In this document: in pieces, positions 18,124 through 63,392 of the stretch | How the letters are laid out: each line of letters opens with the position of its first letter | How positions within the stretch are numbered: the stretch's first letter is position 1 | Origin: Nioella sp. MMSF_3534 | GTDB lineage: Bacteria > Pseudomonadota > Alphaproteobacteria > Rhodobacterales > Rhodobacteraceae | DNA length: 64,000 nt | Direction: 5' to 3' | Assembly: GCF_030732985.1 (NCBI RefSeq) | Contig: NZ_JASHJX010000019.1 | Coordinates: forward strand, 1 to 64,000 | Translations under genes and position numbers: made by a program | The notes under the pieces: model-generated | The model's input: the letters and a program-made list of their open reading frames with translations, nothing else | Databases searched by the model: none | Told to the model about the DNA's origin: nothing

Positions 18124-18138
18124 GAACAAAAGGTGAAT
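18124..18138. promoter_or_regulatory. LexA-type SOS box, one mismatch, before dnaE2
   Basis: GAAC-N7-GAAT, one base from the alphaproteobacterial LexA consensus GAAC-N7-GAAC. It ends 15 bases before the preferred dnaE2 ATG and would overlap a possible GTG start at 18133. DnaE2 genes are normally LexA-controlled, which supports the assignment. Confidence 0.65.
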
Positions 18139-18153
18139 ATACTGTGCCGCGCC

Positions 18154-21123
18154 ATGGGATTCGCGGAACTCTCCATCACCTCCAACTTCACCTTCCTGAC
18201 CGGCGGCTCGCACCCGGAGGATTACGCGCGCCGCGCGGCGTTGCTGGGGCTGGAAGCCATTGCGATTGCCGATGAGAACTCGGTTGCCGGGATCGTTCGT
18301 GCATGGTCAGAACTGAAAGAGATCAAGCGCCAGATCGTCGAACGGCAAGCGGCGGACAAAGACCCGATCGGCCCGCCGAAACCTGCGCATCTGCCCGATC
18401 CGCCCCGCGCGCCGATCTTCCATCCGCCGCGCCTGCTGCCCGCCACACGGCTGGTCCTGCGAGAGGGGCTGACGCTCACCGCCCTGCCCCGCGACCGGCG
18501 TGGGTGGGCGAACCTGTGCCGGATGCTCTCGGCGGGCCGGTTGCGGACCCAGAAAGGCTCCTGCGATCTGGGCCTTCCCGACCTTTGGCAATTCGCCGAC
18601 GGGTTGGAGCTGCTCCTCCACGGCCCGCCAGATGTCCTGACCCATCCGCGCGGCGCGGGCGACTGGTATGCTCAGGCGAAACAGATCACGCGCCGCCTTG
18701 GCCCCGCCTGTCACCTGCTGATGGCCCCTGCCTATGACGGGCATGACCGGCTGCGCTTCCAAAGGCTCACCCGGCTGGCGGGGCAACTGGGTATCCCCAC
18801 CATGGCCTCCGCCGTGCCGATCATGCATCACGGGGCCCGGCGCAGGCTGACCGACGTTCTGACTTGTATTCGCCTCGGCATCCGGGTGGAGGATCTGGGC
18901 ACGAAAGCGCAGGCCAATGCCGAGCAGCGCTTGCGGGGCGAGTCTGAGATCCGCCGCATCTTTGCAGGCTTCGAGGATGCCGTGGACCGGACCCTCGGTA
19001 TCGCCGCGCGCTGTACCTTCGATATCGGCTCGCTGCGCTATGAATACCCCTCCGAGATCAGCGGCGGCGAAACCGCGTCGCAAAGGCTGGAACGGCTGGC
19101 GCGCGCGGGGCTGCAATGGCGCTACCCGTCCGGCGCGCCGGACCGGGCCGTGAAGATGCTGGAGCATGAGCTGCGGCTGATCGCCAAGCTTGGCTATGAA
19201 CCCTATTTCCTCACTGTCCACGACATCGTCGCCTTCGCCCGGTCGCGCGGCATCCTCTGCCAGGGGCGCGGGTCGGCGGCCAATTCCATCACCTGTTATT
19301 GCCTCGGCGTGACCTCGGTCAGCCCGGAGGTCGGCACCATGGTGTTCGAACGCTTCGTCAGCGAGGCGCGCGACGAGCCCCCCGATATCGACGTGGATTT
19401 CGAACATGAACGGCGCGAGGAGGTGATCCAGCATATCTACGAACGCTACGGCCGCCACCGCGCTGGGCTCTGCGCGACGGTGATCCACTACCGGGGCAAG
19501 CGCGCGGTGCGCGAGGTGGGCCGCGCCATGGGGCTTAGCGAAGACATCCTCGGGGCGCTTTCCTCGCAAATCTGGGGCTGGGGCAGCAGCCGCGACATGG
19601 CCGATACCCGGATCCGCGAACTGGGGCTCGACCCGACCGAACCGCGCCTGCGCCAGACCATGGCCTTGGTCCGCGAAATTCAGGGCTTTCCCCGGCACCT
19701 CAGCCAGCATGTTGGCGGCTTCGTCGTGACCGAGGGGCGGCTGGATGAACTGGTGCCCATTGAGAACGCCACGATGGAGGATCGCACCGTCATCTGCTGG
19801 GACAAGGACGATATCGACGCTTTGGGTATCCTCAAGGTCGATGTGCTGGCGCTTGGCATGCTGACCTGCATCCGCAAGGCCTTTGACCTGATCGAGCGTC
19901 ACCATCAAACCGACTATACCCTCGCCACCCTGCCGCCCGAGGATCCGGCGGTTTATGACATGCTGTGCAAGGCGGACAGCCTCGGCGTCTTCCAGGTGGA
20001 AAGCCGCGCGCAGATGAATTTCCTGCCCCGGATGCGGCCGCGCTGTTTCTATGACCTCGTCATTCAGGTCGCCATCATCCGCCCCGGCCCCATTCAGGGT
20101 GACATGGTGCACCCGTTCATCCGCCGCCGGAACGGCGAGGAAAAGGTCAGCTTCCCCTCGGACGAGTTGGGCGCGGTTCTGGGCAAGACGCTTGGCGTGC
20201 CCTTGTTCCAGGAACAGGCGATGCAGATCGCCATCATCGGCGCGGGCTTCACCCCCGATCAGGCGGACCGGCTGCGGCGGTCGCTGGCCACGTTCAAGAA
20301 ACATGGCAATGTCAGCGATTTCCGCACGCTTTTCATGAAGGGCATGCGCGAGCGCGGCTATGACGAGGATTTCGCCGCGCGCTGCTTTTCCCAGATCGAG
20401 GGCTTCGGCAGTTACGGCTTTCCCGAAAGCCATGCCGCCAGTTTTGCGCTGCTGGTCTATGCCTCCAGCTGGATCAAGCACCATCACCCCGGCATCTTCG
20501 CCTGTGCGCTGCTGAACTCGCAGCCCATGGGGTTCTATGCCCCCGCCCAGATCGTCCGGGATGCCCGCGAACACGGGGTCGAGGTGCGGCCCGTCGATAT
20601 CAACGAAAGCTATTGGGACAACGTGATGGAACCTGACGGGCGGGGCGGTCTGGCGCTCAGGCTCGGGTTCCGGCAGATCCGGTCGATGCGGGAAGAAGAC
20701 GCGCGCTGGCTGGCCGCCGCGCGGGGCAATGGCTACCGCGCGGTCGAGGATGTGTGGCGCCGCGCCGGTCTGCCCGCCCGCGCGCTGGCGGTGCTGGCCG
20801 AGGCCGACGCCTTCGCCGGGATCGGGCTTTCGCGGCGAGAGGCGCTGTGGGCTGCCAAGGCGCTGCTGCCCGCAGAACCCCTGCCGCTTTTCACCGGCGA
20901 CATGGACGGCGAGGCCATCGAGGAACCGGAGGTGCACCTGCCCGAGATGACGGAAGGCGAACAGGTGGTGGAGGATTACGTGTCCATGCGCCTGACCCTG
21001 CGGTCGCACCCCGTGGCGCTGATCCGGCATTTGATCAGCCCGGGGCTAGGCCCGCTGCGCGATCCGGCGGCGCATGGCACTCAAAGGTTTGGCAGCGCTT
21101 CGCAGGCGGCCCATGCCGAGTGA
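18154..21123 (+). CDS. dnaE2: Error-prone DNA polymerase DnaE2, C-terminally truncated
   Basis: Alternative C-family polymerase for SOS mutagenesis. At 989 residues it is shorter than the usual 1,050-1,150. Seen: PHP domain from residue 1 (FAELSITSNFTFLTGG), catalytic aspartates in PDIDVDFEHERR and LKVDVLALGML, thumb and helix-hairpin regions up to about residue 930, and SMRLTLRSHP, which normally precedes the OB fold. After about residue 963 the protein ends in 26 residues unrelated to the OB-fold domain I expect. No other frame downstream encodes that domain. The ATG giving MGFAEL matches family N-termini. Polymerase residues are intact, so activity is possible, but clamp or partner contacts may be lost. 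imuA and imuB are not adjacent. Confidence 0.9.
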   Translation: MGFAELSITSNFTFLTGGSHPEDYARRAALLGLEAIAIADENSVAGIVRAWSELKEIKRQIVERQAADKDPIGPPKPAHLPDPPRAPIFHPPRLLPATRLVLREGLTLTALPRDRRGWANLCRMLSAGRLRTQKGSCDLGLPDLWQFADGLELLLHGPPDVLTHPRGAGDWYAQAKQITRRLGPACHLLMAPAYDGHDRLRFQRLTRLAGQLGIPTMASAVPIMHHGARRRLTDVLTCIRLGIRVEDLGTKAQANAEQRLRGESEIRRIFAGFEDAVDRTLGIAARCTFDIGSLRYEYPSEISGGETASQRLERLARAGLQWRYPSGAPDRAVKMLEHELRLIAKLGYEPYFLTVHDIVAFARSRGILCQGRGSAANSITCYCLGVTSVSPEVGTMVFERFVSEARDEPPDIDVDFEHERREEVIQHIYERYGRHRAGLCATVIHYRGKRAVREVGRAMGLSEDILGALSSQIWGWGSSRDMADTRIRELGLDPTEPRLRQTMALVREIQGFPRHLSQHVGGFVVTEGRLDELVPIENATMEDRTVICWDKDDIDALGILKVDVLALGMLTCIRKAFDLIERHHQTDYTLATLPPEDPAVYDMLCKADSLGVFQVESRAQMNFLPRMRPRCFYDLVIQVAIIRPGPIQGDMVHPFIRRRNGEEKVSFPSDELGAVLGKTLGVPLFQEQAMQIAIIGAGFTPDQADRLRRSLATFKKHGNVSDFRTLFMKGMRERGYDEDFAARCFSQIEGFGSYGFPESHAASFALLVYASSWIKHHHPGIFACALLNSQPMGFYAPAQIVRDAREHGVEVRPVDINESYWDNVMEPDGRGGLALRLGFRQIRSMREEDARWLAAARGNGYRAVEDVWRRAGLPARALAVLAEADAFAGIGLSRREALWAAKALLPAEPLPLFTGDMDGEAIEEPEVHLPEMTEGEQVVEDYVSMRLTLRSHPVALIRHLISPGLGPLRDPAAHGTQRFGSASQAAHAE

Positions 21124-21179
21124 CGGGAACGGGGGCCAACGGGGGATGACCACGCAGTACCACTATCCCTAGGCCGAGC

Positions 21180-21403
21180 CACTGGCGCACCGTAGACGTG
21201 CCGCTGAAGGGGCGGACATTCACCCCGCCCCAAGCGCCAGACGCTGTTCTGTCTTGGCGGCGCGGGTCACGGCCAGCGACGGCGAAGCACGGGAAATCTG
21301 CAAGGGCGATGTCTGGCGGATGGAGGATACCCACGGCAAGGGGCACCACACCGTCGTGATTAGCGAGGACGCGTTCGAGGCAGCCCTGGTGCAGTTCGAC
21401 TGA
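21180..21403 (+). pseudogene. Remnant of a cupin-domain gene
   Basis: Two fragments in different frames match the start and end of a small cupin protein I recall from Rhodobacterales. HWRTVDVPLKGRTFTPPQAP is read from 21180, and VTASDGEAREI, GDVWRMEDTHGKGHHT and a terminal EAALVQFD are read from 21266 to the TGA at 21401. The central barrel is missing and there is no intact start codon. It lies directly after the truncated dnaE2, so one deletion probably damaged both. Confidence 0.6.
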
Positions 21404-21410
21404 TCAGACC

Positions 21411-22400
21411 CTACAGCCCGTATTTCCCACGGTTCTGCCCGACCTGTTTCATCACCCGCACCAACTCAAAACTGATGCCGGGTTCCGAAAGCGCATGCCC
21501 CGCCGCGCGGACCATGTGCAGCCGGCCTGACCGCCAGCCCTGGGCCAAGTCATGCGCCGACCGGGGCGGGCAGATCATGTCATAGCGGCCCTGCACGATG
21601 ACGCCGGGGATATGGGCAATCTTCGGCAGGTCGCGCAGGATCTGGCCGTCTTCCTGAAGGAAGCCCTTGTTGACGAAATAGTGGTTTTCCAAACGGGCAA
21701 AGGCGCGGGCGTAATCCGCCGGGGCCTCGCCGGGGTTGCCGTCACTTTCAACCGAGGCCAGCGCATTTTCCCAGGCCGACCAGGCACGGGCATGGCGGGT
21801 TTCGACCATCAGGTCGCCGGAAAAGAGCCGCCGGTTATAGGCCGCGATCATGTCGCCGCGCTCGTCTTCCGGGATCAGCGACGAAAACCGCGCCCATTGT
21901 TCCGGCCAGAACTGCCCCGCACCGCCGCCATAGAACCAGTCCAGCTCTCGCTGCGTCGACAGGAAGACACCGCGCAGGGCGAGGAACGCCGCCCGGTCGG
22001 GGTGCGTTTCCGCATAGACCAGAGCCAAGGTCGCGCCCCAACTGCCGCCGAAGACGGCCCATCTGTCGATGCCGAGTGTTGCCCGGATCCGCTCGATATC
22101 CGCCACCAGATGCCAGGTCGTATTGTCCTTGGTGGACGCATGAGGCCGCGACCGGCCGCACCCGCGCTGATCGAACAGGATGACCCGGAACGCCTCCGGG
22201 TCGAAATAGCGCCGCATCGCCGGGCTGCACCCGCCCCCCGGCCCGCCATGCAGCACCACGACCGGCGCGCCATCGGGATTGCCGCATTGTTCCACATAGA
22301 TCTGATGCCCGTCGCCCACATCCAGCATCCGCTGATCGAACGGGTCAATCGGCGGGTAGAGATAGGCGCCTGCGCGCTTTTGGCCGGAGAATTTGTCCAT
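21411..22400 (-). CDS. pip: Proline iminopeptidase (alpha/beta hydrolase, S33)
   Basis: Releases N-terminal proline from peptides. The 329-residue protein has the S33 hallmarks: oxyanion-loop HGGPGGG at 51-57, FDQRGCGRS near 76-84, nucleophile S120 in GGSWGATLAL, and a late histidine in RAAGHALSEPG. Length and N-terminus (LYPPIDPFDQRMLDVGDGH) match the Xanthomonas/Neisseria-type enzyme. It is divergent from ubiG, with about 70 bases between starts. Confidence 0.94.
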   Translation of the reverse strand: MDKFSGQKRAGAYLYPPIDPFDQRMLDVGDGHQIYVEQCGNPDGAPVVVLHGGPGGGCSPAMRRYFDPEAFRVILFDQRGCGRSRPHASTKDNTTWHLVADIERIRATLGIDRWAVFGGSWGATLALVYAETHPDRAAFLALRGVFLSTQRELDWFYGGGAGQFWPEQWARFSSLIPEDERGDMIAAYNRRLFSGDLMVETRHARAWSAWENALASVESDGNPGEAPADYARAFARLENHYFVNKGFLQEDGQILRDLPKIAHIPGVIVQGRYDMICPPRSAHDLAQGWRSGRLHMVRAAGHALSEPGISFELVRVMKQVGQNRGKYGL

Positions 22401-22472
22401 GTTTCCCCTATATAGACCGATGGGGTGGGTCTGCTATGCCTGCCACGATGCCAAGATCGGAAAGGGATGTCC

Positions 22473-23216
22473 ATGAACAGCGCGGCCAATACCGTCGATG
22501 ACGCCGAAATCGCCAAGTTCGAGGCCATGGCTGCGGAATGGTGGGACCCTAAGGGTAAGTTCGCGCCGCTGCATATGATGAACCCGATCCGGCTGGACTA
22601 TATCACCGCGCAGATTGCCGCCGAGTTTGGCCGTGACCTGCGCGATGAAAAGCCGTTCTACGGGCTGCGCCTGCTGGATATCGGCTGCGGCGGCGGGCTG
22701 TTGTCGGAACCCATGGCGCGGCTTGGGGCGACCGTGGTGGGGGCGGATGCGGCGGAGCGGAATATCCCTGTCGCGCGCGTTCATGCCGAACAATCGGGGC
22801 TGGAGATCGACTATCGCCACACGACCGCCGAGGCGCTGGCAGAGGCGGATGAACAGTTCGACGTGGTCCTGAATATGGAAGTGGTCGAACATGTCGCCGA
22901 CCCGCAGGCCTACCTGACCGCCTGCCGGCAGCTGCTGAAACCGGGCGGGCTGATGATCTGTTCGACGATCAACCGGAACCCGAAAAGCTTTGCCCTCGCC
23001 ATTGTCGGAGCGGAATACGTGATGCGCTGGCTGCCCAAGGGCACGCATGAATGGCACAAGTTCATCACGCCGGAGGAGCTGTTTGCCCTGATCGAAACGG
23101 CGGGCCTCGACCCGGTGGACCGCAAGGGCTTCGTCTTCAATCCCATCAGCTGGCGCTGGTCGATCTCGGACCGCGATCTGAGCGTGAACTACGTGACGGC
23201 GAGCGTAAAGCGGTAG
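22473..23216 (+). CDS. ubiG: Ubiquinone biosynthesis O-methyltransferase
   Basis: SAM-dependent methyltransferase carrying out both O-methylations in ubiquinone synthesis. The 247-residue protein has the UbiG start ([19 protein letters not shown]), SAM-binding motif [14 protein letters not shown] at about 67-79, and the C-terminal [14 protein letters not shown] and [11 protein letters not shown] segments. The ATG at 22473 has an AAAGGG site six bases upstream; an ATG two codons earlier abuts that site and is less likely. It is divergent from pip. Confidence 0.95.
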
Positions 23217-23440
23217 GCCCAAGATAGCTGACAGGCTGTTCCCATTCAGTGCCTGAGGACGTATCCGGAGGGACGCCATCGATGAAGCAGTCTAAGCAGC
23301 GGCGAAGCAAACAGCGGGCATGCTTCTTGCCCCATTGCCTAACCTGATGCAGACTTTCTACCAAAGGAGGGATGTCTCCACCATCACTGGATCCGTTGGC
23401 ATGAGCTCATCCCGGCCCCTTGCTTTGGGAGGAGTGTGCT

Positions 23441-24259
23441 ATGACATCCGAGACCACAGAGGCCCCGTCGAAGAACGATCAGACACCACACCAGCGGGCA
23501 ACCCTCACCATCAATAGGGTGACGGCAGAGGACATCCGGGCATCGCTCAAGGCTGGCTTTGCCGACTTTCTGGCGCGCCCGGTCATGAGCGGCTTTTTCG
23601 GCCTGTTCTACGCCCTGTTCGGTATTCTCTTCATCTGGGCGCTCGTCTGGCTCGGCAAGATCTGGATGGTCATTCCCGCCGCTGTCGGCTTTCCACTGGT
23701 CGCCCCTTTCGCCGCCGCTGGGCTTTATGAAATGTCCCGCCGGATACAGATGGGGGAAAGCTTCGGCTGGTCCGACATCCTGACTGTCATGGCCAATCAG
23801 CGGAAACGAGAACTGGGCTGGATGGCCTTTACCACCCTGTTCATCTTCTGGGTGTGGGTCTACCAGATCCGGCTGTGGCTCGCGATCATCCTGCAGGATG
23901 CGTCCTTCTCGGATGTCGACGGGTTTCTGAGCATCGTGTTCTTCACGCCAGAGGGCTGGACCTTCCTTGCCATCGGCACTGTCGTCGGTGCGGGTCTGTC
24001 GGCGGTCCTGTTTTCCGTGACCGTCATTGCCATGCCCATGCTGCTGGACCGTGAGTTGGATTTCGTAACCGCCATGCTCACCTCCATCCGCGTAGTGGTT
24101 GAGAACAAGGGCGTCATGCTCAGCTGGGCCGCGATCATCGCGGTCACCATAGTGCTGTCGCTGGTTCCCGCGTTCCTGGGCCTGATCTTTACCCTGCCGA
24201 TCCTTGGCCACACCACATGGCATCTCTATCGGCGGGCAGTTTCACCGACAAAGGGGTGA
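23441..24259 (+). CDS. DUF2189 integral membrane protein
   Basis: Multi-pass membrane protein of unknown function. The 272-residue product has a hydrophilic N-terminus (about 45 residues) and then six or so hydrophobic segments (for example FGLFYALFGILFIWALVWL and LSWAAIIAVTIVLSLVPAFLG). The DUF2189-like pattern includes VGFPLVAPFAAAGLYEMSR. The start is set by GGAGGAG eight bases upstream. The preceding 224 bases hold no gene that I can support. It is convergent with the MarR gene. Confidence 0.8.
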   Translation: MTSETTEAPSKNDQTPHQRATLTINRVTAEDIRASLKAGFADFLARPVMSGFFGLFYALFGILFIWALVWLGKIWMVIPAAVGFPLVAPFAAAGLYEMSRRIQMGESFGWSDILTVMANQRKRELGWMAFTTLFIFWVWVYQIRLWLAIILQDASFSDVDGFLSIVFFTPEGWTFLAIGTVVGAGLSAVLFSVTVIAMPMLLDRELDFVTAMLTSIRVVVENKGVMLSWAAIIAVTIVLSLVPAFLGLIFTLPILGHTTWHLYRRAVSPTKG

Positions 24260-24298
24260 TCATTGATCAGCATCGACCTCACCCCGGTAACCCGCGGA

Positions 24299-24748
24299 TC
24301 AATCCTTCTGCGCCACTTCCAGTTCGATCCGCATCTCTCGGATCACCGGCAGGGCGGCCCGCACGCGGTCGGCGCCGACTTCCTGCACGGTGCGGCTGAG
24401 GATGGGGGCGATGGTTTGCAGGGCGGCGTCACGGGCGGCGCGGCCTGAGGGGCTGATCGCCACGAATTTGCGGCGGGCGTCGTCCCAGTCGGGGCGGATA
24501 TGCACGTGGCCCGCGATCTCCAGCCGGTTGAGCGTGTTGGTCATCGCCCCCCGCGTGACGTGGAAGAGCCGCGCCAGTTGCGCCGGGCTGCGTTCCTCGT
24601 TCGACCGCGCCAGGTGGTTCAGAACGGAAAAATGGCTCAGCTCCATCCCCTTGGGCAGCGCCTTGCTCAGCAGGGACCGCGCCAGTTGGTCGGCCATGAA
24701 CAGCTCGGAAAAGAGCGCAATGGCAAGGGGATCGTCGTTAGAGCTCAT
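24299..24748 (-). CDS. MarR-family transcriptional regulator
   Basis: Dimeric winged-helix DNA-binding protein of 149 residues. Seen: helix-turn-helix and wing at about 50-100 (RSPAQLARLFHVTRGAMTNT, then DDARRKFVAISPSG). Its ATG overlaps the stop of the nitrilase-like gene by four bases, so it is cotranscribed with, and may sense something linked to, the nitrilase, glutaredoxin and ComF group. Target unknown. Confidence 0.9.
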   Translation of the reverse strand: MSSNDDPLAIALFSELFMADQLARSLLSKALPKGMELSHFSVLNHLARSNEERSPAQLARLFHVTRGAMTNTLNRLEIAGHVHIRPDWDDARRKFVAISPSGRAARDAALQTIAPILSRTVQEVGADRVRAALPVIREMRIELEVAQKD

Positions 24749-25578
24749 GTCACCAAGGTATAGGGCCGGTCATGTCGGATCGAGGGCACGCGCCCCCGTG
24801 CCTTGTCCACCTCTTTGACGTCCACGTCAATGATGTGCAGCCCCGGTTCGGTGCCCGCGTCCAGCAGAACCTCACCCCATGGGGCCACCACAAGGCTGTG
24901 GCCATGGGTTTGGCGGGGCTTGCCGGTGCTCACCTTGTGATCACCCGTCTGCGCGGGCGCGATGACGAAACAACCCGTCTCGATGGCCCGCGCGCGCAGC
25001 AGCGTTTCCCAATGCGCCTTGCCGGTGACGGGGGAAAACGCGGCAGGCACCGTCAGCACCTGCGCGCCTGCCTTGGCGAGATCGCGAAAGAGATAGGCGA
25101 AGCGCATGTCGTAGCAGATCGACAGGCCAAACCGCGCCCAAGGGGTGTCTGCCACAACAGCGCGGTTGCCGGGGCGGTAGCCATCGGATTCGCGGAAGGT
25201 CTCCGTCTCTGTCACGTTCACGTCGAACATGTGGATCTTGTCGTACCACGCGGCGATATCACCCTGGTCGGAAATCAGGAAGGACCGGTTTGCAAAGCGC
25301 CCGTCGGGATCGCCCGATTGCAGCCCGAGCGAGCCGAGCAGCACCCAGAGGCCTGCCTCTTGAGCCGCTTGACGAACGGCGGCAAGCGTCGGGTCCGTGT
25401 CCTGCGGATGCAGCACCGCGGCCTGGTGGGCGCGGCTCTGGGACACGCAATTGGTGACTTCCGGCGTCAGCAGGATGTCGGCCCCGGCGGCCTTGGCCTC
25501 TGCCAGCGCCGCCAGAACCGTTTCGGCATTCTCCCCCGGATTGTCCGAGGAACACATCTGCAAAATCGCGGCGCGCAT
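24745..25578 (-). CDS. Nit-type carbon-nitrogen hydrolase
   Basis: Nitrilase-superfamily amidase; closest in appearance to the Nit1/Nit2 branch (deaminated glutathione or omega-amidase activity). The 277-residue protein has the catalytic triad E40 (LLTPE), K114 (YDKIHMFDV) and C155 (LSICYDMRF), with normal length. Lying directly downstream of a glutaredoxin gene by one base fits a glutathione-repair role, but substrate is inferred. Confidence 0.9.
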   Translation of the reverse strand: MRAAILQMCSSDNPGENAETVLAALAEAKAAGADILLTPEVTNCVSQSRAHQAAVLHPQDTDPTLAAVRQAAQEAGLWVLLGSLGLQSGDPDGRFANRSFLISDQGDIAAWYDKIHMFDVNVTETETFRESDGYRPGNRAVVADTPWARFGLSICYDMRFAYLFRDLAKAGAQVLTVPAAFSPVTGKAHWETLLRARAIETGCFVIAPAQTGDHKVSTGKPRQTHGHSLVVAPWGEVLLDAGTEPGLHIIDVDVKEVDKARGRVPSIRHDRPYTLVT

Positions 25579-25836
25579 TCAGCCCTGCAGCAGTTTGTCC
25601 AGCTTTCCCGCACGGTCCAGCGCGGCCATGTCATCGTAGCCGCCCACATGGGTCTGGCCCACAAAAATCTGCGGTACGGTGTGGCGGCCATTGGCGCGGG
25701 CCAGCATTTCCTGCCGCTTCTCCGGCGCGCGGGCCACGTCATATTCGGCAAACTCGATGCCCTTGTCCGACAGCAAGCGCTTGGCCGCATGACAGAAGCC
25801 ACAAAACGGCGAGGTGTAGATTTCAACAGTCTGCAT
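25579..25836 (-). CDS. grxC: Glutaredoxin 3
   Basis: Small dithiol glutaredoxin of 85 residues that reduces disulfides with glutathione. The active site is CGFC (C12, C15), unlike the common CPYC, followed by the cis-proline motif TVPQIFV and GGYDD. It abuts the nitrilase-like gene and is 38 bases downstream of comF, all leftward. Confidence 0.94.
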   Translation of the reverse strand: MQTVEIYTSPFCGFCHAAKRLLSDKGIEFAEYDVARAPEKRQEMLARANGRHTVPQIFVGQTHVGGYDDMAALDRAGKLDKLLQG

Positions 25837-25874
25837 AGGTCTGGTCCCGAAAATCGTCCTGTTCGGTCCCCTAG

Positions 25875-26597
25875 TTAGGCATCCTTGGCCACGCGCGCCA
25901 GTGCCATCACGCGAACGTTCTCTGCGCCTGCGTCATGGCAGGCTTGCGCGGCGGCGGCGAAGGTGGCGCCAGAGGTCATCACGTCGTCGACCAGCAGGAT
26001 ATCGCGGCCCACCAGAATATGGCCCCTCTTGGGGTGCGGATGGATGGAATCGCGCAGGTTCTCGAAACGCTCCTCCCGGCCCTTGCCGTCCTGGCTGGCG
26101 GTCTTGCGGATGCGTTTCAACGCGTCGGGGGCGAAGAACGCCTGAGTCTCATTGGCCAGCGCCTGCGCCAGCAATGCCGACTGGTTCACCTTTCGACGGA
26201 AGAGCCGCCACCAGTGCAGGGGGATGGGCACGATCACGGTATTGTCGGTCATCAGCGGCCCCGCCTTGGCCGCCATCCATTTGCCTGCGGCCCGGGCAAT
26301 CGCGGGCTGGTCGCCGTGTTTCAGGCGCAGAACCATCTTTCGCCCGTTGCCGGAATATGTGAAGACAGCGCGCCCCTTGTCCCAGGGTCGTGCGATGGTC
26401 AGGCAATCGTCGCAGCGCAGGCCCGGTTCGGGGTCCGATCCGGGCAGGGGTGTGCCGCACTGGTCGCAGGAAGGACCGTTGATGAAGGGCGTATCGCTCC
26501 AACAGTTTGCGCAAAGACCGAACTCGGTCTCGACCGGCGCACCGCAACAAACGCAATCGGGCGGAAACACCGCATTCACAGCCGTTTGCAATTTCAT
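25875..26597 (-). CDS. comF: ComF-family phosphoribosyltransferase-like protein
   Basis: Double zinc-finger protein related to competence factor ComF/GntX. The 240 residues include cysteine pairs near 15-18, 29-32, 44-47 and 62-65, and a PRPP-loop motif ILLVDDVMTSGAT near 198-210. In other bacteria ComF assists DNA uptake, but no competence genes are visible here. It is first of the leftward comF-grxC-nit-marR run and divergent from the methyltransferase. Confidence 0.9.
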   Translation of the reverse strand: MKLQTAVNAVFPPDCVCCGAPVETEFGLCANCWSDTPFINGPSCDQCGTPLPGSDPEPGLRCDDCLTIARPWDKGRAVFTYSGNGRKMVLRLKHGDQPAIARAAGKWMAAKAGPLMTDNTVIVPIPLHWWRLFRRKVNQSALLAQALANETQAFFAPDALKRIRKTASQDGKGREERFENLRDSIHPHPKRGHILVGRDILLVDDVMTSGATFAAAAQACHDAGAENVRVMALARVAKDA

Positions 26598-26621
26598 CCC
26601 GGCCCCCTAGGTTGCTGCGAC

Positions 26622-28659: not shown

Positions 28660-28765
28660 GGCTTCTCCCCAGAGCCGAGTGAAGGGATCACGTTAAGTGA
28701 TTCTGGTAGAAAGTCACTAGGTTTGCGGCCATCCCAATGGATAGGTTTGTGGGGGAAATGGCTAC

Positions 28766-30549: not shown

Positions 30550-30568
30550 GCCCGCCCCTTGTGGCAAA

Positions 30569-50922: not shown

Positions 50923-50929
50923 ACCTGCG

Positions 50930-53618: not shown

Positions 53619-53838
53619 GTGCTCTGCCCCATTCATCGGCATGATCGTCGCGGATTACGTGGGAATGCACCTGCCTGCTGGTGCGTTCTCTGCGCCGATA
53701 ATGCCCGTCATTCTTTGTTTTGCCGCAGAATAGCCCTGTTCTTGTCACAAGTTAAGCCCTTGCGCGTCCCGGCGTGTACTTGAGTCCCGCGGGCCACAGG
53801 TCTATCGCTGTGACACCCGGAATGAGGAGAGCCAGGCC

Positions 53839-55577: not shown

Positions 55578-55633
55578 GATTCCGCCAGAGCAGTCACGGG
55601 GCCAAAGACCCCGGCAACCAGCAAGAGGCAGGC

Positions 55634-56374
55634 ATGATCGACAGGGACGATCTTCTTTCACGGATTCAGGACGGCGATATCTCGGTCTTCCAGATCAAGA
55701 GCCAGACCACCAACAAGGACAAGGCAACGCTGCTGGCGGTGCAGAATTTCCTGCGCGATCAGGTGGGCGACTACAGCTATATCGAGATCGGCTCGCATCT
55801 GGGCGGCAGCCTTGTACCACATCTGGCGGACCCGGCCTGCACCCGCATTTCCTCGGTCGATCTGCGCCCCGAGGTGCTACGCGACGAACGGGGCCGCGAT
55901 GCGGTTTACGAGGGCAATTCCACCGAGCGGATGATCGACGGGCTGGCGGGCGTGTTGCCGATAGATTGCCTGACCAAGATGCGCACCTATGATTGCGACG
56001 CGGGCGATCTGAAGGATTTCGACGTGCCAACGGACCACGTGCTTGGCATGATCGACGGGGAGCATACCAACGTGGCCGCCTTCCGCGATTTCCTCAATCT
56101 GCGCAAATACATGGCCAAGGATTGCGTGGTGCTGTTCCACGATTCCAACCTTGTCTTCGATGCGCTGCTGAATATCGAAACGCTGCTGCGGGACGAGGGC
56201 ACCCGATTTGCCAGCTTCTTCCTGCCCGGCATCCTTTATGGCATCGCCTTCGGCAAGCTGCGCAAGCCTGCAAAGAAGGCGCTTGGGCCGCTGGCCCATG
56301 ACCCGGAGGAGTTCGTGGCCCGTGCCCGACGTGACCTTCAGGAACGGATCGCCAAGCACCTGCAGGCCGCCTGA
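55634..56374 (+). CDS. Class I methyltransferase-like protein
   Basis: Protein of 246 residues of the Methyltransf_24 type: YSYIEIGSHLGGSLVPHL (SAM-binding strand and turn), FDVPTDHVLGMIDGEHTN, and CVVLFHDSNLVFDALL. Often found with sugar or O-antigen genes, but context here is the DUF2064 gene before and rnr after. Substrate unknown. Confidence 0.8.
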   Translation: MIDRDDLLSRIQDGDISVFQIKSQTTNKDKATLLAVQNFLRDQVGDYSYIEIGSHLGGSLVPHLADPACTRISSVDLRPEVLRDERGRDAVYEGNSTERMIDGLAGVLPIDCLTKMRTYDCDAGDLKDFDVPTDHVLGMIDGEHTNVAAFRDFLNLRKYMAKDCVVLFHDSNLVFDALLNIETLLRDEGTRFASFFLPGILYGIAFGKLRKPAKKALGPLAHDPEEFVARARRDLQERIAKHLQAA

Positions 56375-56425
56375 GCCCCTTGTTTTCCGCATGACGCGCC
56401 CCTTGGCCCGTGCTAGGCCAAGGGC

Positions 56426-58681
56426 ATGAGCCAGATCCCCACCAAAGACCAGATTCTTGCCTGGATTTCCGACAATCCCGGCCATGCCTCGAAACGCGAT
56501 ATCGCCCGGGCCTTCGGCATCAAGGGCGCCGCGCGGATCGACCTGAAACGCATTCTGAAGGAGCTGGAGGCCGAGGGCCATCTGGAGAAGCGCAAGAAGA
56601 CCTATCGCGATCCCGACCGGCTGCCGCCCGTTGCGGTGTTGCAGGTGCTGGCGCCAGATGATTTGGGCGATGTGTTTTGCCGCCCGTTGGAATGGTTGGG
56701 CGAAGGGCCGGAACCGCGCATCCTGTTTGCTGCGAAGGCGACCGATCCCGCGCTTGGGGAAGGCGACCGCATTCTGGCGCGGATGCAGGAGGTCGAGGGC
56801 GAGGATCACCAATATGTCGCCCGCCTGATCCGGCGGATCGGTACCAACCCACGCAAGATCCTCGGTATCTTCCGTAAGGGGGCCGAGGGCGGGCGGATCG
56901 TGCCAATCGACAAGGGGTCGGACAAGGAATGGATGGTGCCCGCCGCCGCAGCCGAGGGTGCCAAGGACGGCGAACTGGTCGAGGCCGAACAATCGGGCCC
57001 CAAGGGGCGCATGGGCTTGCAGAAGGCGCGCATTGTGCAGCGGCTTGGCGATCCGGGGCAACCCAAGGCGGTGTCACTGATTGCCATCCACCAGCACGGC
57101 ATTCCCGACGATTTTCCCGACGACGTGATCGCCGAGGCGGATGCGGCGAAGCCTGCCGGGCTGTCTGGCCGCGAAGACCTGCGCGACATGCCGCTCTTGA
57201 CCATCGACCCGGCCGATGCGCGCGACCGCGACGATGCCTGCCTTGCCCATGAAGATGACGACCCCAAGAACCCCGGCGGTTTCGTGATCTGGGTCGCCAT
57301 TGCCGATGTGGCCCATTACGTGCGCCCGGGATCGGCGCTGGACCGCGAGGCGCGCAAGCGCGGCAACTCCACCTATTTCCCGGATCGCGTGGTGCCGATG
57401 CTGCCCGACCGGCTGTCGGGGGATCTTTGTTCCCTTCACGAAGGCGTGCCACGCGCCTGTATGGCCGTGCGCATGGTGATCAACGCGCAGGGCGAAAAGA
57501 TCGGGCACCGCTTCGTGCGCGGGCTGATGCGGTCTGTGGCGTCGCTGAACTATCAAGAGGTTCAGAACGGCATCGACGGGCACCCCAATGACAAGGTCGC
57601 GCCACTGGTTGACCCGGTTCTGAAACCGCTCTTCGCCGCCTATGGCGCGCTGAAACTGGCGCGGGCCAAGCGCCAGCCGCTGGATTTGGACCTGCCGGAA
57701 CGCCAGATCATTCTCAGCGATGAGGGGCAGGTGACATCCGTGGCCTTCAAGGACCGGCTGGATGCCCACAAGCTGATCGAGGAATTCATGGTGCTGGCCA
57801 ATGTCGCCGCCGCCGAGGAGCTGATCCGCCTGAAAACGCCGCAGCTTTACCGGGTGCACGAGGAACCGAACCCCGACAAGATCGCCGCCCTGCGGGAAAC
57901 GGCGCAGGCCAGCGGTTTCAATCTGGCCAAGGGGCAGGTGCTGCAAACCCGGCACCTGAACAGCCTGCTTGCCGCCGCCGAAGGGACAGAGTTCGACGAG
58001 CTGATCAACATGTCGACCCTGCGGTCGATGACGCAGGCCTATTACAGCCCTCAGAATTTCAGCCATTTCGGGCTGGCGCTGAAGGCATACGCGCATTTCA
58101 CCTCGCCCATCCGGCGCTATTCCGACCTGATCGTGCACCGGGCGCTGGTCTCTGCCCATGGCTGGGGCCGCGACGGGCTGAGCCCGGAAGAGATTGAGCG
58201 GCTCGACGACATTGCCAAGCATATCTCGGACACCGAACGCCGCTCGATGCTGGCCGAACGCGACACGACCGACCGTTATCTCGCGGCCTATCTGTCGGAA
58301 CGGGTGGGCGAAAGCTTTACCGGTCGGATCAGCGGCATCGCCCGGTTCGGGGCCTTCGTGAAGCTGGACGATACCGGCGCGGATGGGCTGCTGCCGATGC
58401 GGGCGCTTGGGCGGGAGTATTTCCATCACGACGCCGAGGCGCAGACCCTTGTGGGGGCCGATACCGGCCTGACCATTGGCATCGGGCAACGGGTGACGGT
58501 GAAACTGGCCGAGGTGGTTCCGGTTACCGGCGGCATGACGCTGGAACTGGTGGAGATCGACGGGAAATCCGTGCCACGCGGGGCGCGCCATGGGCGCGGA
58601 GCGGGGCCAAGACGCAAGGCGGGCAAGGCCCGCGCCAAGGCCGCCAAGGTCAAGAAGAAGGTGCTGCGCAAGCGCCGCTAG
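56426..58681 (+). CDS. rnr: Ribonuclease R
   Basis: Processive 3'-5' exoribonuclease for structured RNA. The 751-residue protein has an N-terminal helix-turn-helix-like domain (about 1-60, with GHASKRDIARAFGIKG), cold-shock-like domains, the RNB catalytic core (TIDPADARDRDDACL, metal-binding aspartates), a C-terminal S1 domain (FTGRISGIARFGAFVKLDD) and a Lys/Arg-rich tail. Start preceded by AAGGG. Its stop overlaps the sulfotransferase gene by four bases on the other strand. Confidence 0.96.
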   Translation: MSQIPTKDQILAWISDNPGHASKRDIARAFGIKGAARIDLKRILKELEAEGHLEKRKKTYRDPDRLPPVAVLQVLAPDDLGDVFCRPLEWLGEGPEPRILFAAKATDPALGEGDRILARMQEVEGEDHQYVARLIRRIGTNPRKILGIFRKGAEGGRIVPIDKGSDKEWMVPAAAAEGAKDGELVEAEQSGPKGRMGLQKARIVQRLGDPGQPKAVSLIAIHQHGIPDDFPDDVIAEADAAKPAGLSGREDLRDMPLLTIDPADARDRDDACLAHEDDDPKNPGGFVIWVAIADVAHYVRPGSALDREARKRGNSTYFPDRVVPMLPDRLSGDLCSLHEGVPRACMAVRMVINAQGEKIGHRFVRGLMRSVASLNYQEVQNGIDGHPNDKVAPLVDPVLKPLFAAYGALKLARAKRQPLDLDLPERQIILSDEGQVTSVAFKDRLDAHKLIEEFMVLANVAAAEELIRLKTPQLYRVHEEPNPDKIAALRETAQASGFNLAKGQVLQTRHLNSLLAAAEGTEFDELINMSTLRSMTQAYYSPQNFSHFGLALKAYAHFTSPIRRYSDLIVHRALVSAHGWGRDGLSPEEIERLDDIAKHISDTERRSMLAERDTTDRYLAAYLSERVGESFTGRISGIARFGAFVKLDDTGADGLLPMRALGREYFHHDAEAQTLVGADTGLTIGIGQRVTVKLAEVVPVTGGMTLELVEIDGKSVPRGARHGRGAGPRRKAGKARAKAAKVKKKVLRKRR

Positions 58682-59445
58682 CGGAAGGTGATCCGCTCCA
58701 TCACGTTCAGGTCCTCGGCGACGTGGCGTTCCATCTCGCTGCGCTGCGCATCGCTGTCCAATTCGTCCAAAAGCGCCTGCCAGCGGCTGCGGGAGCGATC
58801 CAGCGGGCCGGGGTTGGCGTGCTTGGTCACGATATCCGGTCGTGTCCCGAAACTTGCTTCGATGTCATCCTCGATCTTCTCGAACTCTCCGAAGCGGTAG
58901 ATCGCGGTCAACTTGCGGCTGTTTTCCTCGGCCAGCGCCAGAAGGTCGGCCAATGGGGCATTTGCGAGGGTTCCGCGCCGGATCAGGCTGCGCAGGGCCA
59001 GATAGGTCAGGGTCAGGTTGGACCACCTTTCCCGCACGGCCAGCTGAATTTGCGGGTCCTCGGAAAAGAAAAGCGCGGATGCACCGTTTAGCAGGGCGCG
59101 CTGCGCCGGTGGCAGAGAGTCCACCCCATTGGCATCGCGCGACCTGCGCGCTTCTTCCCGCATGAAGAAGTAGAAGGACCCAAGCCGTTCACGGGGGTCT
59201 CGCAGAACCATGAAGGAAAACGGATCACCGGGCACGTTTTCCAGCTCGTGCCAGTGCAGATGGCCCGAATGCATGCGGTATTCCGGCGGAAATGTCGCCC
59301 CGTCCCGAACATGGGATTGCAGCCGGTAGGGCGAGATGTTCCGTTCCCCAAAAAGCGCGCCGACGCTGTGGTGAATGGTCTGACCGCCGGTTTTGGGCAG
59401 GTGAAGAAAAACGATCGGGCGTTCTGAATCAGGATCAATCGACAT
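58678..59445 (-). CDS. Sulfotransferase-family protein
   Basis: Protein of 255 residues with the PAPS-binding 5' motif FLHLPKTGGQTIHH and the 3' motif VLRDPRERLGSFYFF. Likely transfers sulfate to a sugar or lipid. Start MSIDPDSER is chosen; a 7-codon longer start (MAGYLRG) is also possible. Convergent with rnr and divergent from the transglycosylase gene. Confidence 0.85.
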   Translation of the reverse strand: MSIDPDSERPIVFLHLPKTGGQTIHHSVGALFGERNISPYRLQSHVRDGATFPPEYRMHSGHLHWHELENVPGDPFSFMVLRDPRERLGSFYFFMREEARRSRDANGVDSLPPAQRALLNGASALFFSEDPQIQLAVRERWSNLTLTYLALRSLIRRGTLANAPLADLLALAEENSRKLTAIYRFGEFEKIEDDIEASFGTRPDIVTKHANPGPLDRSRSRWQALLDELDSDAQRSEMERHVAEDLNVMERITFR

Positions 59446-59620
59446 TCCCCTGAGATATCCGGCCATGAGGCGGGCGCAAGTCCTTTTGCGCTGTTCAGCT
59501 TTTGGTAACGGTGTTGGCAGAGACTTGCCGGCGAGGCTCCGCCGAAGGGGTGGGGCCGGTGCTTCTTTCGAAACCTGGAAGCGCGTATACTGCGGGACAA
59601 GCAATCATACAGGCCCGAGC

Positions 59621-60970
59621 ATGCTGACGCCGAAACTATTCCTGACCGCAATCCTGGTTCTGGCGGCAAGTGCTGCCGGGGCCACGCCCACGGCCACCAT
59701 GCGGCCCTTGCCCCGCCCGGCGGAAGACAGTTTGCAAAGCGTGACGCCAAGCGGGCTGGCAGTGGACGTGTCCTTGCGTCCGGCCATGCGCATGGTGACA
59801 TTGGCCGCCCACCCCGAAACGCCTTTGGCAGAGCCGGTCAGCTCCTCGGGCTTCCGGGCATGGTTTTCCGAGTTTTCACGCCGTGCCCGCGCGGAAGGCA
59901 TCGGCCAGCAGACTCTCGACAGGGCCTTTGCCGGGGTGACGCTGAATGAAAGGGTGATCGAGCGTGACCGCAACCAGTCGGAATTCTCGCGGACCTTGTG
60001 GGATTATCTGGACAGCGCCGCGTCGGATACGCGCATTGCCAACGGGCGCACGGCCCTGCGGGAGCATCGTGACACGCTGGACGCCATCGAACGGCGCTTT
60101 GGGGTCGAGGCCGAGATCGTGGCGGCGGTCTGGGGGCTGGAAAGCGCCTATGGCAGCTTCCGCGGATCGGTCCCGATCATCGAGGCGATGGCGACGCTGG
60201 CCTATGAGGGCCGCCGGGCGGAGTTCTTCGAGACCGAGCTGATGGCGGCGCTGCGCATCCTGCAGGCGGGTGATATCGACCCGGGCCATATGCAGGGATC
60301 ATGGGCGGGGGCGATGGGACACACGCAGTTCATGCCCACCAGTTTCCTGGCCCATGCGGTGGATTTCACCGGTGACGGGCGGCGCGATATCTGGGGGGAT
60401 GACCCCGCTGACGCACTGGCCTCGACCGCGCGCTACCTGTCGGAAAACGGCTGGACCCACGGCCAACCCTGGGCGCTGGAAGTGGAGCTGCCGGACGATT
60501 TCGATTTCTCGCAGAGCGGTGAGCTGATCCAGCGCGATGCGGCCCATTGGAACGCCATGGGTGTGCGGCTGGCGCGCGGTGGCGGTCGGGTTCCGGAACA
60601 CGGGCCCTCCTCGATCCTGCTGCCGGCGGGCCATACGGGCGTGGCGCTTGTGATCTATGAAAACTTCCATGTGATCGAGACCTACAACCCGGCGGATGCC
60701 TATGTGATCGGGGTGGGACATCTGGCCGACCGGATCGGCGGCGGACCTGCCTTTCGCGGCGGCTGGCCCCGGCAGGATCGGGCGCTGACCAATGACGAGC
60801 GGTTCGAGTTGCAACGGCGGCTGACGGCGGCGGGGTTTTCCACGGAGCGTATTGACGGGATCGTCGGGCCGCTGACAATCCAGGCAGTGCGCGAATACCA
60901 GGCCGCCGAGGGGCTGGTGCCGGATGGCTATGCCTCTGAGGCGCTGTTGAGGCGGCTGCGGCGCGGCTGA
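59621..60970 (+). CDS. MltB-type lytic transglycosylase with peptidoglycan-binding domain
   Basis: Exported enzyme of 449 residues: signal peptide (about 1-21, ending AAGA), an MltB-type catalytic domain (about 75-360) with the catalytic glutamate in WGLESAYGSF and the motif WAGAMGHTQFMPTS, and a C-terminal PG_binding_1 domain (about 380-449: ERFELQRRLTAAGFSTERID). Cleaves glycan strands to anhydromuropeptides. Confidence 0.93.
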   Translation: MLTPKLFLTAILVLAASAAGATPTATMRPLPRPAEDSLQSVTPSGLAVDVSLRPAMRMVTLAAHPETPLAEPVSSSGFRAWFSEFSRRARAEGIGQQTLDRAFAGVTLNERVIERDRNQSEFSRTLWDYLDSAASDTRIANGRTALREHRDTLDAIERRFGVEAEIVAAVWGLESAYGSFRGSVPIIEAMATLAYEGRRAEFFETELMAALRILQAGDIDPGHMQGSWAGAMGHTQFMPTSFLAHAVDFTGDGRRDIWGDDPADALASTARYLSENGWTHGQPWALEVELPDDFDFSQSGELIQRDAAHWNAMGVRLARGGGRVPEHGPSSILLPAGHTGVALVIYENFHVIETYNPADAYVIGVGHLADRIGGGPAFRGGWPRQDRALTNDERFELQRRLTAAGFSTERIDGIVGPLTIQAVREYQAAEGLVPDGYASEALLRRLRRG

Positions 60971-61122
60971 GCAGTTGCGCCCTGCAGGGCAGGTCGCGGC
61001 GGGAACGGCCCTCCTCAACCCCCGGCTTGCGCCGGAGGCCTCGTCGGTCCGTGTTGCCACGGGCCTGTGGCACGGGTGGTCTGCTGGGTGTGACGGTGGA
61101 TCTGCGTTGAGGCGAAGGGATG

Positions 61123-61142
61123 CCTCCGGCGGAGGTATTTTT
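61123..61142 (+). terminator. Short intrinsic terminator after the transglycosylase
   Basis: CCTCC-GGC-GGAGG stem followed by TATTTTTG and then CCAAGATGAA. I recall very similar hairpin-T-tail elements dispersed in Rhodobacterales genomes. It lies about 150 bases after the gene stop. Confidence 0.6.
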
Positions 61143-61155
61143 GCCAAGATGAAAC

Positions 61156-61626
61156 TCAGACCTCGACTGTGAGAATGGCTCCGATTGCGAGCGTTCCGGG
61201 TGTCAGAATCTCTGCACACCAGCCACCATGGCCGCGCATGGCGTTGTAGCCTCCGGGGCCGAGCGCCTCCTCCATCCGCGAGCAGGGGGCGCAGGGGCCG
61301 GTGATACGCAGCCGGGCGGTGCCGGTTGTGAGGATGCGGTTGCGGGTGGCCGAGAGGTTGAGGCCGGAGATCACGAGGTTGCGCCGCAGCGTTTCGGGCG
61401 CGACCTGGGGAAGCCCTGCAAGGGTGGCGATGACCGGCAGGTGTTCGGCCTGGATCAGGGTCACGGCGCGCTTTCCGGGGCGGGCGTGGTCGCCTGCGAG
61501 GCCATGGTCGAGAATGTCGATCCGGGGGACCGACTGCATGGCCGCCTTCCGCGCGGGGCGCAGGCCGATCCAGTCGACGCGGCCGGGCCGGGGAAAGCGG
61601 GCGGTGAGGCTGGCGAGCGGTTCCAT
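61156..61626 (-). CDS. MOSC-domain protein
   Basis: Protein of 156 residues with the MOSC pattern (LIQAEHLPVIATLAG near the middle, RNLVISGLNLSATRNRIL, CAPCSRMEEALGPGGYNAM with the conserved cysteines). MOSC domains bind molybdenum-linked or sulfur-carrying ligands; the precise role is unknown. The ATG at 61626 gives MEPLASLTARF; the longer frame is a shadow of imuB. It is divergent from imuB, sharing the region with a LexA box. Confidence 0.85.
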   Translation of the reverse strand: MEPLASLTARFPRPGRVDWIGLRPARKAAMQSVPRIDILDHGLAGDHARPGKRAVTLIQAEHLPVIATLAGLPQVAPETLRRNLVISGLNLSATRNRILTTGTARLRITGPCAPCSRMEEALGPGGYNAMRGHGGWCAEILTPGTLAIGAILTVEV

Positions 61627-61684
61627 GGGGTGAGCGTGACACGGGAGGCGGACTCGACTCCAGCCCCGTCGGGCGCTACATATG

Positions 61685-61699
61685 GAACATAACATGAAC
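61685..61699. promoter_or_regulatory. Perfect LexA (SOS) box before imuB
   Basis: GAAC-ATAACAT-GAAC is an exact match to the alphaproteobacterial LexA box GAAC-N7-GAAC. It ends 13 bases before the imuB ATG. Confidence 0.85.
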
Positions 61700-61712
61700 A
61701 TCATGCTGCCAC

Positions 61713-63392
61713 ATGAGCCCATCCGCCCCCAACCGCCCCGATCCGCGCCGCCGGATCCTGTCACTGTGGTTTCCACGGCTGGCCGCTGAACATGTGCAGC
61801 GGCTGGACCGGGGGCTGTGCGACAAGCCGCTGGCCGTGGTCGAGGAGGTGGGGAATGCGCGGGTCTTGTCCTCGCTGTCGCTTGAGGCATCGCGCGCGGG
61901 GCTGACGCCTGGCCTGCCGCTGGCCGAGGCGCGGGCGTTGTGCCCCGATCTGCAGACGCGGCCTGCCGACCGGTTGCGAGAGGCTGCTTTCCTGACATTG
62001 CTGCGCCGCTGGGCGGGCAAGTTTTCCCCCTGGGTTTCGGAGGAGGGGCGCGAGGGGCTGATGATCGACCTGACGGGTTGCGCGCATCTCTTCGGGGGCG
62101 AGGCGGCGTTGATCGCGCAGGTGGAGGCCGACTGCGCGGCGTTGCGCTTGACGGTGCGGGCGGGGCTGGCGGATACGGGCGGTGCGGCCTGGGCACTGGC
62201 GCGCTATGCGGGGCAGGGGGCGGGCAGTACGCGCAATGGCGATGCCATCGACCAGGAGGCGCGGGCGACCCGGTCACGCGCGGGCAAGCGGCGGCACTGG
62301 ACCAAGGGTGGCGCGGCGCCTGCGCGCGACGTCACCGCCCGCACCGCGCCAATTGCCCCGCCGGGGCAGACGCGGGCCGCCATCGGGGGGCTGCCCAGTG
62401 CGGCCCTGCGGTTGGACCCCGCGACGGTGGCGGGGCTCAATCGGCTGGGGCTGCACCGGATCGGCGACCTGCTGGGGCCGCCACGCGCCACGCTGGCCCG
62501 GCGTTTCGGGCAGGGGGTGGTGCGGCGGTTGGATCAGGCCCTGGGGCTGGAGCCGGAACCGATTGCCCCCGCCCGGCCCGAGACCCATTTCGCGCTGCGC
62601 CTCAGCCTGCCGGAACCCATTGGGCTGGAGGAGGATATTCTGGCGGGGATCGACCGGCTGCTGCCACCCTTGTGCGACAAGCTGCGCGCCAAGGGGCGCG
62701 GCGCGCGGCGGGTGCGGCTGGAGTTGATGCTGGCCGAGGGGAGGACGGAAGCGGTGGAGGTGGGGCTTGCCCGTCCGGGGGCGGAGCCGGACCGCATCCG
62801 CCCGCTTCTGGCGATGAAGCTGGGGGATATCGACCCCGGTTTCGGCATCGACACGCTGCGGCTGGTGGCCCCGGTGACGGAGCCTGTTCACGCGCGGCAG
62901 CTGAAGGGCGGGCTGGCTGCCACGGAAGACGCCGCCGCGCGGCAGGGGCGCGATACGGGGCTGGAGGATCTGTTGGGCCGGATCGGCGCCCGCGTGGGGC
63001 TGGAGGCGATCACCCGCCAGCACCCGGCTGAAAGCCACATTCCGGAAAAGACCTCCAGCACACTGGCCGCCGCATGGTCGGAGCCTGCGAAAGACTGGCC
63101 GCGCGCGCCCCGTCCCCGCCCCCTGACGCTTTTCCGTCCCGAACCGGTGCAGGCAGAGGATCGGCCCGGTCTGCCCGCGCGGTTCCGCTGGCGGGGGCGG
63201 GATTTCGCGACGCTAGGCGGCCTAGGGCCAGAGCGGATCGCGCCGGAATGGTGGCTGGACGATCCCAACTGGCGCAGCGGTGTGCGCGATTACTGGCGGG
63301 TGGAAACCGAAACCGGCGAACGGCTGTGGCTGTTCTACGCCCATGGGGGGGCGGTGTCGGGCGGTTGGTTCTGCCAGGGGGATTTTGGCTGA
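61713..63392 (+). CDS. imuB: ImuB, catalytically inactive Y-family polymerase-like mutasome protein
   Basis: Hub of the SOS mutasome with ImuA and DnaE2. The 559-residue protein has the ImuB start (RRRILSLWFPRLAAEHVQRL), in place of the aspartate-bearing DinB motif, so the polymerase is inactive. It also has DLTGCAHLFGGE and the little-finger-like region (about 290-400), plus a C-terminal extension (about 440-559) with WWLDDP and DYWRVETE. It is usually the second gene after imuA, but no imuA is present here; the LexA box acts on imuB alone. No ribosome site is visible. Confidence 0.92.
   Translation: MSPSAPNRPDPRRRILSLWFPRLAAEHVQRLDRGLCDKPLAVVEEVGNARVLSSLSLEASRAGLTPGLPLAEARALCPDLQTRPADRLREAAFLTLLRRWAGKFSPWVSEEGREGLMIDLTGCAHLFGGEAALIAQVEADCAALRLTVRAGLADTGGAAWALARYAGQGAGSTRNGDAIDQEARATRSRAGKRRHWTKGGAAPARDVTARTAPIAPPGQTRAAIGGLPSAALRLDPATVAGLNRLGLHRIGDLLGPPRATLARRFGQGVVRRLDQALGLEPEPIAPARPETHFALRLSLPEPIGLEEDILAGIDRLLPPLCDKLRAKGRGARRVRLELMLAEGRTEAVEVGLARPGAEPDRIRPLLAMKLGDIDPGFGIDTLRLVAPVTEPVHARQLKGGLAATEDAAARQGRDTGLEDLLGRIGARVGLEAITRQHPAESHIPEKTSSTLAAAWSEPAKDWPRAPRPRPLTLFRPEPVQAEDRPGLPARFRWRGRDFATLGGLGPERIAPEWWLDDPNWRSGVRDYWRVETETGERLWLFYAHGGAVSGGWFCQGDFG

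Follow-up and report, generated by a model that had tools for sequence, protein, structure and literature searches.

The ImuA-ImuB-DnaE2 mutasome, known from Caulobacter, Pseudomonas and Mycobacterium, is normally encoded as one contiguous cassette, although such a cassette is typical and not required of the system. Upon damage the genes are induced and ImuB gathers ImuA and DnaE2 at the clamp, with ImuA being bound via the RecA-NT motif of ImuB. An OB domain within DnaE2 together with a C-terminal SRDF[H/R] motif is given for ~77 % of DnaE2 in the survey of Timinskas et al. 2013, which also mentions several DnaE2 sequences without OB (PMC3919608). A published AlphaFold model places the contacts between DnaE2 and ImuB in the PHP and HhH/beta-binding regions and not in the OB, and the same 2026 survey reports, in its main text, systems with a divided ImuB but none with a divided DnaE2 (PMC12926913).

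We analysed a window of 64 kb, i.e. the whole stretch of 64,000 nucleotides from Nioella sp. MMSF_3534, in which the original prediction had seen a split and incomplete mutasome, either decaying or working with a minimal DnaE2 and a distant or absent ImuA.

dnaE2 and imuB in the window

The features of both loci are summarised in Table 1. The open frame of dnaE2 spans 18133-21123 and opens at GTG 18133, upstream of the conserved ATG at 18154. Its product is a DnaE2-type C-family polymerase (NF004225 score of 1220 bits vs the cut-off of 939) with the catalytic aspartates (PDIDVDF) kept, and it covers positions 4-937 of NCBIfam model PRK05672 (error-prone DNA polymerase, 1047 positions). No homology extends beyond about codon 974 (nt ~21055), which lies ahead of the OB domain. 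Both the OB domain and the C-terminal SRDF[H/R] motif are missing from DnaE2s of this short type, and the PHP and HhH/beta-binding regions, the contact sites with ImuB in the published model, are both retained. The structural model of the core has a pLDDT of 81 and its top structural matches are crystal structures of E. coli Pol III alpha ending near residue 910-917. As these best-matching structures stop so early, the model makes it plausible that the OB-less core is a stable unit.

Table 1. Coordinates of the dnaE2 and imuB features in the window
Feature	Position	Strand	Description
LexA box of dnaE2	18124..18138	+	GAACAAAAGGTGAAT, one mismatch to GAAC-N7-GAAC
dnaE2 core	18154..21123	+	989 aa from conserved ATG; PHP, palm, thumb, fingers, HhH/beta-binding; without OB domain
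DnaE2 C-terminal tail	21055..21123	+	non-conserved, strain-specific; region rearranged vs congeners
LexA box of imuB	61685..61699	+	GAACATAACATGAAC, perfect GAAC-N7-GAAC
imuB, solo	61713..63392	+	559 aa; inactive Y-family homologue with ImuB C-terminal region
ImuB insert, residues ~171-209	62223..62339	+	GDAIDQEARATRSRAGKRRHWTKGGAAP; Arg/Lys-rich, conserved, clade-specific, between palm and thumb

The region beside the dnaE2 stop is rearranged in the window strain (21056-21401), where ~600 bp are absent in comparison with G001 and G003 and ~120 bp are unalignable. This local rearrangement replaced the last ~20 non-conserved residues of DnaE2. The ORF 21240-21401 downstream of dnaE2 is a cupin-like remnant left without its start and resembles the final part of an unrelated gene. 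No OB remnant was recovered from any ORF of the window, and a frameshift-hidden OB downstream of dnaE2 was not found in 38 short loci either (three-frame translation of the dnaE2 strand, best E 0.37).

The window ImuB has matches to PF00817, DUF6504 and the Y-family fold and aligns with canonical ImuBs. The clamp-like motif RPLTLF and the C-terminal region of ImuB are conserved. Neither imuA nor dnaE2 adjoins the gene, and its box is the sole perfect GAAC-N7-GAAC in the window. The gap between imuB and dnaE2 is 40.6 kb (43.6 kb from start to start), and no ImuA-like or OB-like ORF was identified among the ORFs of the window. The layout originally described, with imuB alone under a perfect box, a distant dnaE2 under a near-perfect one, no imuA, and a dnaE2 deprived of its C-terminal OB but not of its aspartates, was thus reproduced in all these points.

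Split-type ImuBs have in common an arginine-rich insert with the consensus ~GDAIDQEARATRSRAxKRRHWxRGGxAP, which is missing in cassette ImuBs and also in the ImuBs of G009, G105 and G058. In the AlphaFold model of the window ImuB the insert shows pLDDT below 50 and no confident fold, with a possible helix at 176-187, as would be expected for a conserved linear interaction motif.

A similar spacing of the two genes recurs in other genomes. In several genera, represented by G000 (the window's genome), G016, G010, G135, G094, G165 and G163, a single contig carries imuB and dnaE2 at a distance of 22-41 kb, which suggests a conserved loose linkage. At three loci, L200 (G054), L201 (G112) and L205 (G078), imuB is located 1-1.4 kb upstream of a short dnaE2 on the same strand, and this could represent either ancestral linkage or local re-association.

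Genomic loci of ImuA and of a solo OB gene

A whole-genome search for ImuA and for the missing OB region, proposed along with the original prediction, recovered both. Using a profile of canonical cassette ImuAs, we identified ImuA at G000:C13:17349-17960 (E 4.5e-37), with the perfect LexA box GAACATTTAGCGAAC upstream. The protein scores below the cut-off of NF033429, and so does a cassette ImuA used as control. Split-type ImuAs carry RARxxPPxxW at the place where cassette ImuAs have the C-terminal KNKxGTxGxW.

A profile of fused DnaE2 OB domains retrieved a complete gene for a stand-alone OB protein of 122 aa on the minus strand at G000:C30:37551-37919 (E 4e-42). The protein begins MEPDIRPPDWPRPP, and the perfect LexA box GAACGAATATAGAAC lies directly upstream of the gene. 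The only further match of this profile in the genome was the OB of the replicative DnaE (E 0.004). The solo OB aligns to positions 950-1041 of PRK05672 (E 1e-29), and DnaE2 and the solo OB therefore tile the family model as two proteins without overlap. In Pfam it is assigned to a plain OB fold (PF01336), and weak matches to SSB- and RPA-type OBs were also seen, but the best match by far is the error-prone polymerase family. At the scale of the genome the mutasome is hence not incomplete, contrary to what had been claimed, as ImuA and the OB are both encoded elsewhere, each under a perfect box.

Across the clade the solo OBs measure ~115-150 aa. A W-P-R/K-P-P motif, not observed in fused OBs, is shared by their N-termini, and the tail LFPSRDFH is missing from them; the basal G105 still has THPRDQSKLLF, a visible remnant of this tail. 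A 2Fe-2S ferredoxin gene adjoins the solo OB at 32 loci, in every genus examined except the basal G105, and this constant neighbour indicates an old, vertically inherited locus. The search on phages gave one weak match to the solo OB, and on plasmids those of the best matches that are annotated were error-prone DNA polymerase genes.

Distribution of short DnaE2 and solo OB

In the first set of 41 genomes (the window's own and 40 relatives), DnaE2 of ten genomes ends at the same domain boundary and continues with unrelated tails, and these same ten genomes also possess a distinct ImuB, encoded away from dnaE2. Inspection of 80 named loci revealed no imuA in the fetched flanks of the OB-less DnaE2s, and no imuB with the exception of L164 (imuB convergent, ~0.5 kb); the full-length DnaE2s adjoin imuB, and usually imuA too, where the contig allows. 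Among the named taxa with the short DnaE2 are Thalassococcus, Ruegeria marisrubri, Shimia, Maritimibacter, Phaeobacter, Palleronia, Cereibacter johrii, Sulfitobacter and Marivita.

The family-wide set comprised 150 genomes of genera sampled across the family and contained 56 high-identity copies of the short kind. None of these has both imuA and imuB adjacent, vs 53 of the 73 other copies. For 13 short copies whose open frame was misleadingly long or whose identity was low, we inspected the sequence itself, and the OB was lacking in each of them. Altogether, OB-less DnaE2 occurs in 58 of the 150 sampled genera, so DnaE2s that naturally stop here are common among relatives, a finding named beforehand as one that would refute the original prediction.

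The solo OB gene shows a complementary distribution. It was found in 56 of the 58 genera with short DnaE2 and in none of the 65 with fused DnaE2 only (Fisher p ~1e-33, a value that ignores shared ancestry). The same is seen within the genus of the window, where the solo OB is present in G001, G003 and G004 and absent in the fused-type G002 and G005. In eight control genomes the solo-OB profile retrieved fused OBs only. The coupling of core and OB is not absolute, because in two short-DnaE2 genera, G065 (99 % complete) and G085 (98 %), no solo OB was found with either profile, and the complete-looking G072 (L237, L294) possesses split-type imuB, solo imuA and solo OB, with dnaE2 not detected. 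In the drafts G082, G089 and G140 the solo OB was found and dnaE2 is missing or fragmentary. ImuA was recovered in all but one of the 58 genera, the exception being G166 with only a 48-residue fragment at a contig end. The single-contig genomes G066 and G163 show the same dispersed arrangement.

Several genomes of the family also carry other forms of the system. Two members of the window's genus have a compact full-length imuA-imuB-dnaE2 cassette (G002:C49 and G005:C50), which groups with cassettes of other families. Cassette-type DnaE2s were observed on plasmids in several Rhodobacteraceae (e.g. Dinoroseobacter shibae, 126 kb; plasmid hits H2-H24), which suggests that mobile cassettes replace the dispersed set of the chromosome. 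Five hybrids, L221 (G095), L222 (G060), L223 (G047), L224 (G100) and L225 (G111), combine an imuB-dnaE2 cassette lacking imuA with a solo imuA elsewhere, and imuA thus appears exchangeable between the dispersed and cassette systems. In G018 (L041, L293) the short dnaE2 is frameshifted, and a decayed fragment of cassette-type DnaE2 still ending LFPSRDFH is located elsewhere.

LexA boxes and selective constraint

We searched for LexA boxes using the direct repeat GAAC-N7-GAAC. The palindromic forms GAAC-N7-GTTC and CGAAC-N4-GTTCG were rejected, as both occur at or near chance level in the window. By chance, a perfect box would occur with a probability of 0.0055 per 215-nt segment. At each of the 36 short dnaE2 loci the box deviates from the motif in no more than one position and mostly lies ~30 nt ahead of the conserved start; it should be noted that a one-mismatch box by itself would turn up by chance in 16 % of such segments. 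A perfect box precedes solo imuA at 17 of 17 loci and solo OB at ~30 of 32, the remainder having one mismatch. For solo imuB the box is perfect in 12-13 of 18 cases and missing or displaced in about one third of the checked ones. The basal G105 has perfect boxes at all four loci. Full-length dnaE2 genes within cassettes have no box of their own, and the stand-alone dnaE2 genes of G009 and G022 have perfect ones.

The dN/dS values of the closest pairs were 0.09-0.12 for dnaE2, 0.09-0.10 for imuB, 0.11-0.20 for imuA and 0.16-0.21 for the OB. Values of ~0.09-0.21 for all four genes mean that they are under purifying selection, which speaks against decay.

Evolutionary history

The short DnaE2 core arose once. 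In the DnaE2 tree, computed from core columns only, all 44 short sequences fall into one clade with support 100/98, which corresponds to one change on the tree. The sister of this clade is G009 with a full-length DnaE2 already unlinked from imuB, and on the next branch, G022, imuAB is divergent to dnaE2. Since the sister is full-length but dispersed, the break-up of the operon probably preceded the loss of the OB. The OB-only tree, with its 118 usable columns, does not by itself prove a single origin of all solo OBs, that of G105 included (p-AU 0.43).

A probable dispersed mutasome and its alternatives

We regard it as likely, judging from the sequences, that these genes constitute a functional four-gene SOS mutasome in dispersed form, in which the DnaE2 gene underwent fission and the OB acts in trans. 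The ancestral imuA-imuB-dnaE2 operon would have broken up in one clade of the family, and dnaE2 would have been divided into a polymerase core and a small stand-alone OB-fold protein. As imuA, imuB, the dnaE2 core and the OB gene each carry their own LexA box, all four are expected to respond to damage jointly: DNA damage would lead to cleavage of LexA, and the four unlinked genes would be switched on together. ImuB would then recruit ImuA and the DnaE2 core at the clamp via the retained PHP and HhH/beta-binding regions, and the solo OB would supply template-strand binding to the core in trans. Its docking may proceed through the N-terminal W-P-R/K-P-P motif or perhaps through the new ImuB insert. 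That the OB rejoins the complex we infer from its descent, distribution and co-regulation. A more speculative version, which we consider possible but doubtful, would be a four-subunit translesion polymerase with the OB as a separate and separately regulated subunit docked via the W-P-R/K-P-P motif and the ImuB insert, the supply of which could tune processivity or lesion access.

The alternative with the most in its favour is that the solo OB, although derived from DnaE2, is now an independent SOS-induced ssDNA-binding protein outside the complex, and that the DnaE2 core, ImuA and ImuB work without any OB. The weak SSB- and RPA-type matches of the solo protein would fit this, as would the genomes in which only one of the two partners was found (OB in G072, short dnaE2 in G065 and G085) and the lack of a major ImuB contact in the OB of the published model (PMC12926913). 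However, the solo gene accompanies DnaE2s without OB in 56 of 58 genera and never occurs with fused DnaE2 only, its best match by far stays in the error-prone polymerase family, and it shares LexA control with the mutasome genes, so we find this alternative rather unlikely. The decay envisaged originally, with dnaE2 as a truncated relic and the dispersed genes as leftovers, may seem suggested by the lost OB and SRDFH tail, by the sequence missing at the 3′ end of dnaE2 in the window strain and by the frameshifted dnaE2 of G018. It is nevertheless very improbable given the purifying selection on all four genes, the kept catalytic residues and conserved boxes, the clade-wide ImuB insert and the stability of the short form over 58 genera of one clade. 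The other option offered at that time, a minimal DnaE2 with a distant or absent ImuA, came close: ImuA is indeed distant and not absent, but the OB was relocated as an SOS-boxed gene of its own and not lost.

Two further explanations can practically be dismissed. Protein trans-splicing might rejoin the halves, and DnaE joined by a split intein does exist in cyanobacteria (cited in PMC3919608), but only ~8-70 unconserved residues follow the core, too few for a typical N-intein of ~100 residues, and the N-terminus of the solo OB is short with no recognised intein domain; we consider this extremely improbable. The own genome is a draft of 105 contigs, so the absence or separation of the genes could be sought in an assembly artefact, yet the genes lie within contigs and the same arrangement in independent assemblies, including the single-contig G066 and G163, already refutes this.

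The dispersed mutasome, as we interpret it, offers a natural experiment on the roles of the OB domain and of the unexplained conserved SRDF[H/R] tail of DnaE2, as the OB has been separated and the tail discarded in a clade that covers over one third of the genera sampled. The short form is carried by relatives of Ruegeria, Phaeobacter, Shimia, Sulfitobacter, Marivita and Cereibacter. Here an operon has been dismantled at the level of both genes and domains, with every piece keeping or gaining the same LexA switch, and surveys based on a single neighbourhood would label such mutasomes as incomplete or decayed.

Comparison with known systems

We found no prior mention of a solo OB gene in the searchable literature on DnaE2 and its OB-fold or OB domain; the dispersal of the cassette itself may possibly have been described in this family earlier. 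For the OB-less DnaE2s noted by Timinskas et al., the main text gives neither a taxon nor a cassette status, and it describes no OB partner encoded on its own (PMC3919608).

The set described here resembles the canonical mutasome of Caulobacter, Pseudomonas and Mycobacterium in its RecA-like ImuA, inactive Y-family ImuB, C-family DnaE2 with catalytic aspartates, and LexA boxes. It differs in that the genes occupy separate loci instead of the typical contiguous cassette, DnaE2 lacks the OB and the SRDF[H/R] tail, the OB is a gene of its own, ImuB has acquired a clade-specific insert and the KNKxGTxGxW of ImuA is changed to RARxxPPxxW. In Mycobacterium dnaE2 is likewise apart from imuB and each locus is LexA-regulated, but imuA'-imuB stay together and the literature gives no separate OB gene, whereas in the present set imuA has its own locus and the OB forms a fourth gene. 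The split DnaE of cyanobacteria is also a C-family polymerase made from two genes; it is, however, replicative and rejoined by a split intein, unlike the present proteins, which contain no intein-sized segment. Finally, the systems with iPolY, stand-alone ImuB-C and DnaE2X (PMC6511836, PMC12926913) likewise encode one mutasome protein in separate pieces, but the protein divided there is ImuB and here it is the polymerase DnaE2.
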